Shown here: one piece after another, positions 16,383 to 59,855 of the stretch
Numbering within the stretch: position 1 is the first letter of the stretch
Layout: every line of letters begins with the position of its first letter
NCBI GenBank assembly: GCA_000690595.2
Contig: JHUT02000002.1
Coordinates: forward strand, 62,001-126,000
Origin: Natrinema mahii
GTDB lineage: Archaea; Halobacteriota; Halobacteria; Halobacteriales; Natrialbaceae
DNA: 64,000 bases
Direction: 5' to 3'
The notes under the pieces: generated by a model
The model's input: the letters and a program-made list of their open reading frames with translations, nothing else
Told to the model about the DNA's origin: nothing
The model's database searches: none
Position numbers and translations under genes: made by a program

Positions 16383-17624
16383 ATGCGCTACAATGACAGT
16401 GACCAAGCACGCGAGGTCGCATCGCGTGCCAACGACTTGATGGAGGAGGTCGTCCTCCCGATCGAACGCGACCGAGCCGGCGGGATGGCCGTCTCGAGCG
16501 GCACCATCGCGGAACTTCGCGAAGCCGCCCGCGAGTACGACGTGTATGCCCCCCAGATCCCCGAGGAGTACGGCGGCATGGGGCTTTCCTTCCGCGATTC
16601 GCTGCCGGCCTTCGAAGAGGCGGGCCGAAGTCTGCTCGGACAGATCGCGATGCGGGTCGACGCTCCCGACGAGGGGAACATGCACCTGCTCGAGCTGGCC
16701 GGCGACGAACTGCAGAAAGAGACCTACCTCGAGCCGCTCGTCCAGGGAGAGATCAAGTCCGGCTTCTCGATGACCGAACCGATGCAGGGCGCGGGCTCGG
16801 ACCCGAAGATGATCCAGACGACCGCCGAGAAAGACGGCGACGAGTGGGTCATCGACGGCCACAAGTGGTGGACGACCCAAGGCGTCGAGGCCGACGTGCT
16901 GATCGTCCTCGCTCGAACCGATCCCGAGGCTCACCCCTACGAGGCTTGTTCGCTCTTCCTCGTCCCCGCCGACGCCGACGGCGTCGAGGTCATCCGCGAC
17001 GTTCCCCACATGGGCGGCGGCAATCACGGCACGTCCCACGCCGAGATTCGCTACGAGAACGTCCGCGTCCCCGAGGAGCACCTGCTGGGCGAACTGAACG
17101 AGGGCTTTACCCACGCACAGGAACGGCTCGGTCCCGCCCGGCTCACACACTGTATGCGCTACTCCGGGATGGCCCAGCGGTCGCTGGACATCGCGAAGGC
17201 CTACATCAGCGAGCGCCAGGGCTTCGATTCGACGCTGTCGGACAAGCAGTCGCTTCGGCACCGGATCGCCGACGCCGAGACGAAACTCCACATGGCCCGG
17301 ACCGGCATCCGCGACGCCGCCGACCGGATCGCCGCCGGTGACGAGGCCCGCATCCCCGTCTCCATGTGCAAGGTCTTCTCTGCCAACGTCACCCAAGACG
17401 CCATCGACCTCGCAGTGCAGTGTTGCGGTGCCAACGGCATCGGCAAGGACCTCCCGCTGTCGGACTTCTACGAATCCGTCCGCCAGTTCCGCATCGTCGA
17501 CGGTGCCGACGAAGTCCATCGCCGAGTCATCGCCCGCGCCGCCTTCGAGGACGTCCCCGAGGAAGAACTCGAGCCGCTGACCCGCTTTGGCGATCCGAAC
17601 CGGGACCGAAGCGCCGACCACTGA
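16383..17624 (+). CDS. Acyl-CoA dehydrogenase, ACAD10/11-like
   Basis: 413 aa flavoprotein that would oxidise an acyl-CoA to the enoyl-CoA. Flavin/substrate block SGFSMTEPMQGAGSDP and WTTQG are in place. At the position where most family members have the catalytic Glu (YEG), this protein has Asp in RIVDGADEVHRR, the form typical of ACAD10/11-type enzymes. A TATA-like ACCCTTAGCC (16351-16360) stands about 28 bases ahead, and the short inverted repeat GGGG-GTAT-CCCC lies at the expected transcription start. Confidence 0.9.
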   Translation: MRYNDSDQAREVASRANDLMEEVVLPIERDRAGGMAVSSGTIAELREAAREYDVYAPQIPEEYGGMGLSFRDSLPAFEEAGRSLLGQIAMRVDAPDEGNMHLLELAGDELQKETYLEPLVQGEIKSGFSMTEPMQGAGSDPKMIQTTAEKDGDEWVIDGHKWWTTQGVEADVLIVLARTDPEAHPYEACSLFLVPADADGVEVIRDVPHMGGGNHGTSHAEIRYENVRVPEEHLLGELNEGFTHAQERLGPARLTHCMRYSGMAQRSLDIAKAYISERQGFDSTLSDKQSLRHRIADAETKLHMARTGIRDAADRIAAGDEARIPVSMCKVFSANVTQDAIDLAVQCCGANGIGKDLPLSDFYESVRQFRIVDGADEVHRRVIARAAFEDVPEEELEPLTRFGDPNRDRSADH

Positions 17625-17835
17625 CAGGCCGTTCGCTGCGCCGCTTTTCTCCGACCCCCGTCGGATCCCGCTTCCCGCCCTCTCGAGTGGCACGATCGGC
17701 TAGGGGCGGACTCGTTGGTCACGGCCCGAATCCCCTCCCGTGTCGTCGCCTCGAGAGTCGGCCATCGGGGTGCGACTGGCGAGCGATTTCGACCGTGATC
17801 GCCTCGAGGACGTGAACGGCAGGCATAGCGGTTCA
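17625..17835. other. Intergenic stretch before the tRNA-flanking repeat
   Basis: No credible gene, promoter or structured element seen in these 211 bases. Together with the repeat that follows, this makes a 534-base region without a protein gene between the acyl-CoA dehydrogenase and tRNA-Arg. Confidence 0.6.
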
Positions 17836-18141
17836 CTCCCTGTTCGCTGTCTGGGCGGGCGGGATTCGAACCACGCGAACGGCTCGCTTCGCTCGCCGTT
17901 CTCTCATTCGAATTCCGCCACACCGGTTCACTCGCCACTCCCTGTTCGCTGTCTGGGCGGGCGAGACTCGAACCACGCGAACGGCTCGCTTCGCTCGCCG
18001 TTCTCTCATTCGAATTCCGCCACGCCGGTTCACTCGCCACTCCCTGTTCGCTGTCTGGGCGGGCGAGATTCGAACCACGCGAACGGCTCGCTTCGCTCGC
18101 CGTTCTCTCATTCGAATCCCGCCACGCCGGTTCACTCGCCA
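17836..18141 (-). repeat. Three 102-base tandem repeats on the 3' side of tRNA-Arg
   Basis: Three near-identical units begin at 17836, 17938 and 18040 (period exactly 102), ending 18 bases from the tRNA 3' end. Each unit holds an inverted pair of T-arm-like sequences: in the third copy the arms are 18061-18074 and 18111-18123 (12 of 13 pairs), with an inner GAACGGC/GCCGTTC stem between. The outward arm reads GGTTCGAATC on the tRNA strand, the same as the tRNA's own T-loop region, 104 bases away. Open reading frames on both strands here are by-products of the repeat. Possibly tRNA-derived or an integration-site remnant; function unknown. Confidence 0.88.
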
Positions 18142-18158
18142 CTCCGTGGCTCGTTGTA

Positions 18159-18231
18159 CGGGCGTGGCGGGATTCGAACCCACGATCAGAAGGTTAGGAA
18201 CCTCCTGCCCTGTCCGCTAGGCCACACGCCC
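18159..18231 (-). tRNA. tRNA-Arg (anticodon CCT)
   Basis: 73 bases folding into a full cloverleaf on the minus strand: acceptor GGGCGTG/CACGCCC (7 pairs), D stem GCCT/GGGC, anticodon stem GGAGG/CCTTC with loop TTCCTAA (anticodon CCT, reads AGG), 5-base variable loop, T stem GTGGG/CCCGC with loop TTCGAAT. No intron. CCA is not encoded. It lies just downstream of tatA on the same strand. Confidence 0.96.
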
Positions 18232-18247
18232 CGGCGGAAAAAGAACG

Positions 18248-18559
18248 TTAGTTGGTCTCCGTCTCGGTTCCGGACTCGGTGGTCGTCTCGTCCTCGGCGG
18301 TGACGGGCTCGGTGTCGACGAACTCCTCGTCGTCGGCGGTCTCGCCCTCACTGACGGTGCCGCCCTCGCGCATTTCCTCGAGTTCCGATTCGACCTTTTC
18401 ACGGCCTTTCTGGAACTCACCCATCGCCTCGCCGGTCGATCGCGCGAGCTTCGGGATCTTGTTCGCCCCGAAGAGCAAGACCGCGATGACGAGGATGATG
18501 GCGAGTTCCGGAGGCCCCATGCCGCCGGGGATGAACAGCGGTGTGATTTCGGCTACCAT
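18248..18559 (-). CDS. tatA: Twin-arginine translocation protein TatA
   Basis: 103 aa with the ATG at 18559. TatA oligomers open the membrane to folded Tat substrates, the main export route in haloarchaea. One N-terminal hydrophobic helix (PPELAIILVIAVLLFGANKIPKL, written here in part) is followed by the FGxxKIPxLARSxGEAxxEF-like amphipathic helix and an acidic tail of about 45 residues rich in Thr and Glu. The start is fixed by the TATA box at 18585-18594; an upstream in-frame GTG/TTG-type extension would cross the promoter. Confidence 0.94.
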   Translation of the reverse strand: MVAEITPLFIPGGMGPPELAIILVIAVLLFGANKIPKLARSTGEAMGEFQKGREKVESELEEMREGGTVSEGETADDEEFVDTEPVTAEDETTTESGTETETN

Positions 18560-18584
18560 CTCTATGCGTAGCTTACCCGCTGGC

Positions 18585-18594
18585 AATTATAACC
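18585..18594 (-). promoter_or_regulatory. TATA box of tatA
   Basis: GGTTATAATT on the minus strand, centred about 30 bases upstream of the tatA ATG, so the mRNA would be leaderless or nearly so. It is in an AT-rich patch (18580-18605) that stands out from the GC-rich surroundings. Confidence 0.7.
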
Positions 18595-59680: not shown

Positions 59681-59780
59681 AAGCCAGGGCGGGGATTTGA
59701 ACCACGGTCGCAGCAGCGCTGCTCCCTGATTCAAATCCCAGTCGACGTGGCTGCTGCTCACGAAATCGTTCGCAGCAGCC
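59681..59780 (-). repeat. Palindromic element and tRNA 3'-end copy beside tRNA-Thr
   Basis: 23 bases of the tRNA-Thr 3' end, from the discriminator side to the T-loop (AAGCCAGGGCGGGGATTTGA and three more on the plus strand), occur again at 59681-59703, exactly 100 bases from the tRNA copy at 59781-59803. Inside are a perfect 10-base inverted pair GGGATTTGAA (59692-59701)/TTCAAATCCC (59730-59739) around AGCAGCGCTGCT (59712-59723), and a second hairpin GGCTGCTGC/GCAGCAGCC (59749-59757, 59772-59780). The design matches the repeat at tRNA-Arg. Confidence 0.88.
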
Positions 59781-59781
59781 A

Positions 59782-59855
59782 AGCCAGGGCGGGGATTTGA
59801 ACCCCGGAAGTCTCGATTACAAGTCGAGTGCATGAACCGCCCATGCTCCCCTGGC
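59782..59855 (-). tRNA. tRNA-Thr (anticodon TGT)
   Basis: 74 bases with a complete cloverleaf: acceptor GCCAGGG/CCCTGGC, D stem GCAT/ATGC, anticodon stem CTCGA/TCGAG with loop CTTGTAA (anticodon TGT, reads ACA), variable loop ACTTC, T stem CGGGG/CCCCG, loop TTCAAAT. No intron, CCA not encoded. Confidence 0.96.

Follow-up and report, generated by a model that had tools for sequence, protein, structure and literature searches.

Archaeal tyrosine integrases prefer the 3′ ends of tRNA genes (PMC8371274), and in Haloquadratum a 22-nt duplication of a tRNA is found at the end of a prophage (PMC3119063). Here, we describe short repeat units that lie behind tRNA genes in Natrinema mahii and in other haloarchaea of the same order. 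They resemble the tRNA-targeting elements with a tyrosine integrase (SNJ2, pNOB8 and HF1-like; T-loop sublocation) in having the tRNA 3′ end as the target, in leaving a restored tRNA and in ending in a direct repeat on the far side. Unlike these elements, the units are gene-free and about 100 bp in length, accompany between one third and one half of the tRNAs in a genome and form tandem arrays; they also have an inverted T-arm and a hairpin before the distal repeat, and the attP of HF1 is without such a hairpin.

With integron arrays and their attC sites the units have in common that unrelated units alternate with repeats, that a hairpin with bases left unpaired at the repeat folds preferentially on one strand and that the junction is next to GTT. 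However, the core of the unit is GTTCRAATC and not GTTRRRY (inverse core RYYYAAC), there is no gene cargo and the repeat differs from tRNA to tRNA. The integron integrase (TIGR02249) scored above the cut-off in none of the 27 Natrinema genomes, and the main text of a paper on archaeal integrons makes no mention of haloarchaea (PMC9668308). MITEs, REP/BIME and PATE-type non-autonomous palindromes are likewise short, noncoding, palindromic and multicopy, but the units are confined to the 3′ ends of tRNAs, where each is accompanied by a 21-nt duplication of its cognate tRNA. CRISPR arrays also combine conserved repeats with unrelated spacers; the `spacers' of the units, in contrast, are palindromic modules common to several arrays and the repeats are tRNA ends. 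We found no published description of the units in the open-licence literature.

The tandem array behind tRNA-Arg(CCT)

The DNA analysed (the window) is a stretch of 64 000 nucleotides from N. mahii (contig JHUT02000002.1, positions 62 001–126 000 of the forward strand). TRF finds one array at 17834–18180, with a period of 102 and 94% matches. It consists of three 102-base units on the minus strand, directly 3′ of tRNA-Arg(CCT), with 2–3 base differences between units; the three near-identical units of exactly 102 bases that an earlier note on this DNA had reported are thus recovered, and the slightly different ends given there follow from the arbitrary phase of a repeat. The layout, which recurs behind many different tRNAs, can be written as X-A-X′-B-X, i.e. 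a tRNA ending in X, a hairpin A, an inverted T-arm X′, a hairpin B and a second X. The features in the window are as follows.

18159–18231, minus strand: tRNA-Arg(CCT) (ARAGORN, cmscan), both the origin of the repeated segment and its target
18159–18179, minus strand: X0, G53–N73 of tRNA-Arg(CCT), 21 nt, the segment copied downstream
18124–18158, minus strand: hairpin A of the unit adjoining tRNA-Arg (unduplicated left end and start of repeat 1)
18111–18123, minus strand: X′ (inverted T-arm, 13 nt) of unit 1, GGCGGGATTCGAA
18075–18110, minus strand: hairpin B of unit 1, a member of the GAGAGAA...TTCGCGT family; also present at 17973–18008 and 17871–17906
18056–18074, minus strand: X copy of unit 1, a decayed copy of T54–N73
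18043–18144, minus strand: 102-bp tandem repeat 1
17941–18042, minus strand: 102-bp tandem repeat 2 (X′ at 18009–18021, X copy at 17954–17972)
17839–17940, minus strand: 102-bp tandem repeat 3 (X′ at 17907–17919, X copy at 17852–17870)
17828–17838, minus strand: right flank GAGTGAACCGC, which together with the GG before it has GGAGTG in common with hairpin A
59782–59855, minus strand: tRNA-Thr(TGT), the second tRNA in the window
59740–59781, minus strand: hairpin A of the single unit at tRNA-Thr
59730–59739, minus strand: X′ (GGGATTTGAA) of the tRNA-Thr unit
59702–59729, minus strand: hairpin B of the tRNA-Thr unit, TCAGGGA...GACCGTGG family
59682–59701, minus strand: X copy of the tRNA-Thr unit, 20/20 identical to T54–N73

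Each 102-bp unit has a hairpin between two T-arms, one inverted (X′, 13 nt) and one direct, and the T-arm copies are spaced by 102, 102 and then 104 bases to the T-arm of the tRNA itself; both the inverted pair and the 104-base spacing had been described previously and hold. The three X copies match T54–N73 of tRNA-Arg at 14–16 of 20 positions in register. Calling the tRNA a degenerate fourth member of the repeat is correct for T54–N73 only. There is no tRNA fold in the units, and ARAGORN and cmscan see a single tRNA here (18159–18231), which agrees with the earlier statement that the repeat is not a second tRNA and also excludes decayed tRNA genes; the only Rfam match at gathering score in the array region (cmscan) is this tRNA. 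A protein-coding repeat was rejected as well: several frames are open, yet the repeat is a hairpin element. The long frames over the array (17740–18303 on the plus strand, 17833–18183 and 17468–18142 on the minus strand) are not genes, and they are open on both strands because 102 is a multiple of three. A TatA-family gene (18248–18586, minus strand) lies just upstream of tRNA-Arg on the same strand, and an acyl-CoA dehydrogenase gene (16383–17624, plus strand) converges on the array from the other side. The tRNA-Thr(TGT) locus at 59682–59855 likewise has one such unit, whose X copy is exact.

At the junction of the window array the flank CAGGGAGTG is joined to hairpin A CGGAGTGGCGAG, and the GGAGTG match between them is presumably the point at which the duplication was joined. 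Close relatives have a single unit of the window-array type (for example L004 of G004), and the number of units at Arg-CCT ranges from 0 to 3; near-identical neighbouring units occur at none of the other Natrinema Arg-CCT loci that were parsed (two loci were not parsable). The triplication is a local tandem duplication of one ordinary unit via the 6-bp GGAGTG match. Copy number thus varies, which is not what a static duplication, equal in all relatives, would give. The repeated integration and excision that the earlier note had put forward does not explain the triplication but does fit the single unit, for which precise gain or loss is seen at many tRNAs.

Boundaries of the unit and modules shared between arrays

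The boundaries were derived from 157 distinct units in 117 arrays, a non-random set enriched for Arg-CCT and for loci chosen by pattern. The sequence of X varies by locus and is that of the 3′ end of the preceding tRNA, usually as an exact copy; in 137 of the 157 units the X copy is uniquely closest to its own tRNA. The identity of X to the tRNA is 90–100% over G53–N73 and is at background level at positions 49–51 and immediately past N73. Because identity drops sharply at both ends, the repeat can be placed at exactly G53–N73 (21 bases), and the base preceding the X copy is a G in every unit (157/157). X′, defined by at least seven of nine T-loop bases, is present in 147 units, compared with 15 after shuffling. 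It pairs with X mainly over T54–C63, and the distal half of X keeps 90–97% identity to the tRNA with hardly any fixed-register pairing to X′. The core, read by eye, is GTTCRAATC. The X copies are separated by 32–180 bp (mean 97), leaving no room for a gene, so that any enzyme must act in trans. As in tRNA-targeting integrative elements, a direct repeat of the tRNA 3′ end flanks the insert and the tRNA is intact (157 units); the integrase gene expected within such an element is missing from the units.

Two or more distinct units are present in 32 arrays, in which neighbours are mostly 0.2–0.7 similar and the X copies match at 16–20 of 20 positions. The B hairpins belong to a few families with fixed internal-loop sequences, and B can be identical over 28–37 nt at different tRNAs, even in different families, with an accompanying A that is unrelated. 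Some arrays are instead plain tandem duplications, and the 102-bp array of the window belongs to these. The first copy is better than the last in 13 of the 18 untied arrays, a polarity that is not significant (p = 0.10). Strong copy-number growth is also seen elsewhere in the order: tRNA-Gly(TCC) of G174 (L365) is followed by six or more near-identical 111-bp units, one or two of which are mutated in hairpin A. At tRNA-Arg(CCG) of the same genome (L366) there is a duplicated, broken tRNA-Arg whose T-stem runs straight into an X′-B-X hairpin, an arrangement that recombination of the 5′ T-stem with X′ could have produced.

Distribution of the units and filled and empty sites

A search with the window region gave matches in 40 of 41 related genomes, partly via the tRNA gene itself. 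A census covered the tRNAs located by RF00005 searches in the home genome (that of the window), its congener G020 and a genome from another family (G174). Cognate copies of T54–N73 (at least 17 of 20 matches, within 420 bases downstream) follow 19 of 44, 15 of 44 and 21 of 45 tRNAs, respectively, and are mostly exact; these counts are lower bounds because the window array, with its decayed copies, is below the threshold and the intron-containing tRNA-Trp is missed. In the same three genomes no cognate copies were found upstream of tRNAs, except at tandem tRNA-Asp genes, and none were found in shuffled flanks. Across the order, the pattern GTTCRAATC-N75–105-GTTCRAATC is present in 266 of 293 genomes (243 of the 255 good ones), a proxy for likely units since some tandem tRNA genes are counted too; the reversed control pattern gave one match. 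Outside the order there are few matches, nearly all at one or two per genome (five and six in G420 and G447), and, apart from those in G420 and G447, the matches listed are mostly tandem tRNA genes. The folded pattern X′-B-X is found at 15 places in the home genome: one is inside tRNA-Ser (a chance match), one is after tRNA-Trp and the rest are after other tRNAs. The units of this genome are thus located behind tRNAs only, and a transposon scattered over the genome can be discarded.

Between the home genome and G020 there are precise filled and empty sites. The Leu-CAA locus reads tRNA-unit-X-CTCACCATAGTGCGCGGC in the former and tRNA-CTCACCATAGTGCGCGGC in the latter; Pro-TGG, Val-CAC and Leu-CAG are equally precise. 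A precise empty site in a relative is a property of tRNA-targeting integrative elements; here the differences may reflect either gain or loss, as deletion between the X repeats gives an identical picture. The unit at Leu-CAA is found in two of the 27 Natrinema genomes and that at Pro-TGG in seven; the filled state at Leu-CAA, despite being in the minority, may be ancestral, since its hairpin A is also present in G005. At Pro-TGG the home genome and an empty relative (G006) match on either side of the unit. Nearly the same Pro unit (89/94) is present in G000 and G173, with unrelated right flanks and the junction exactly at X. The tRNA-Pro(TGG) loci (L339–L363) form a rearrangement hot spot, with a 3′ flank that differs among close Natrinema species and a conserved upstream side. 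The home genome has an extra unit at Gly-GCC, which lies on the tRNA side of an older unit that is decayed. Many orthologous tRNAs have no unit.

The folded strand and the origin of the units

The two-by-two internal loops in hairpins A and B are GA/GA in 152 cases and TC/TC in five (about two and one, respectively, in shuffles); the corresponding background counts for the window, 89 to 118, are balanced. Stability is a property of tandem GA pairs and not of their complements; together with the excess of GA/GA this indicates that selection maintains folding of the single strand in tRNA sense, and a purely strand-symmetric palindrome is ruled out by the same counts. The sense strand out-folds its complement with DNA and RNA parameters alike and also out-folds shuffles. 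The B stems of the TCAGGGA...GACCGTGG family show compensatory change, with four of ten pairs changed on both sides (reached by 0 of 500 shuffles). Isolated G–U and A–C mismatches in the stems number 22 and 20, compared with 97 and 23 in tRNA stems (p = 0.0009, which is nominal because the sequences are related), and this lack of a G–U bias leans towards single-stranded DNA rather than RNA. A simple hairpin finder, applied to stable C(GNA)G loops as a DNA signature, yielded no result, as the GA pairs break the stems. Inspection of the B families by eye showed no 3-4-3 motif of bulge–helix–bulge splicing sites.

Our preferred reading, which we put forward tentatively and at slightly less than even confidence, is that the units are small non-autonomous insertion cassettes that are specific for the tRNA T-loop and have a folded, attC-like site, X′-B-X. 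A cassette would comprise X (T54–N73 of the cognate tRNA), hairpin A, X′, hairpin B and the G preceding the next X. Insertion would occur at the start of the T-loop (G53/T54), and the inserted cassette would supply a new tRNA 3′ end and push the old end downstream, leaving the tRNA intact and X duplicated. With further insertions, an array would come to alternate unrelated cassettes with identical X copies, recombination between two X copies would delete a cassette precisely, and ordinary tandem duplication would multiply a single cassette, as in the window array. On the tRNA-sense single strand X′-B-X would fold into a hairpin with conserved internal loops, and this hairpin would be the recognition or recombination site of a putative trans-acting recombinase, similar to attC. 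The observations themselves comprise the anatomy of the unit, the exact ends of the repeat, its identity to the cognate tRNA, the spread over the order, the confinement to tRNAs in the home genome, the precise filled and empty sites and the selection for sense-strand folding; arrival of new units by insertion, the enzyme and the single-stranded DNA form are inferred. Against this reading, a recombinase could not be tied to the cassettes, circular or free forms were not observed, and precise empty sites can also be obtained by deletion between the 21-bp repeats. It also needs an extra exchange step, because a foreign X would spoil another tRNA, yet the B modules cross tRNAs. Two further results count against it: the filled state at Leu-CAA may be ancestral, and plasmid and phage records gave no similar unit, with one real case among the viral contigs. 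The wider proposal, that tRNA genes are integration platforms for tiny hairpin cassettes carrying their own 3′ end, in gene-less integron-like arrays that act through a folded single strand and a putative enzyme, and that this system is unlike any described, is in our view rather doubtful.

The folding data also suit a structured RNA, the second possibility raised in the earlier note, in which the unit would be the 3′ trailer of the tRNA, with hairpins that act in processing, termination or protein binding and an X that is kept for pairing with X′. The strand that folds is the tRNA-sense strand, its folding beats that of shuffles and of the complement, the B stems change in a compensatory manner around invariant internal-loop sequences and a GUU/GUU loop, which suits RNA, is conserved in one B family. 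We nevertheless consider a trailer RNA to be unlikely, if well worth weighing: the G–U to A–C ratio is 22:20 and not the 97:23 of tRNA stems, distal X is 90–97% conserved with hardly any fixed-register pairing to X′, the unit is missing at many orthologous tRNAs and no Rfam family is matched at gathering score. Alternatively, the units may arise and spread with no dedicated enzyme, through ordinary exchange between homologous sequences, through template switching at the palindromic T-arm and through tandem duplication, and may be lost by deletion between X repeats. The window array, as a tandem duplication with a 6-bp junction match, is an example of such a process, the T-loop core is common to all tRNAs and repeat-mediated deletion has been reported in haloarchaea (PMC3119063). 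Template switching should be strand-neutral, however, which conflicts with 152 GA/GA loops against five TC/TC; B modules with identical internal loops recur across tRNAs and families, and the repeat ends are constant at G53 and N73 in all units. We consider this origin unlikely. The units could finally be scars of viruses or plasmids that integrated at tRNA 3′ ends and lost their middle, leaving fused ends between att repeats, as the integrase preference (PMC8371274) and the Haloquadratum duplication (PMC3119063) might lead one to expect. This is very unlikely, as so many tRNAs have units of one conserved anatomy and the attP of halovirus HF1 (a comparison with one virus) is an ordinary truncated tRNA with no X′-B hairpin before X.

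If the cassette reading is right, a large share of the tRNA genes across an archaeal order carry a class of noncoding element that has been overlooked by annotation pipelines. It would connect integration at tRNAs with recombination sites that fold as single strands, would account for the instability of haloarchaeal tRNA 3′ flanks and would provide natural arrays for tracking insertion order and recombination. If the units are RNA instead, they would constitute a large family of trailer RNAs that is new to science.

No similar unit was matched in plasmid and phage records, and two specific B families gave no match in viral contigs. The direct-repeat pattern matched at least 120 stretches in viral contigs, and the hairpin pattern matched three contigs, of which one match is real. 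The latter (L218, 13744–13930) is on an IMG/VR viral contig with tail-like genes, where tRNA-Glu is accompanied by one intact and one decayed unit, and the locus is possibly the edge of a provirus.
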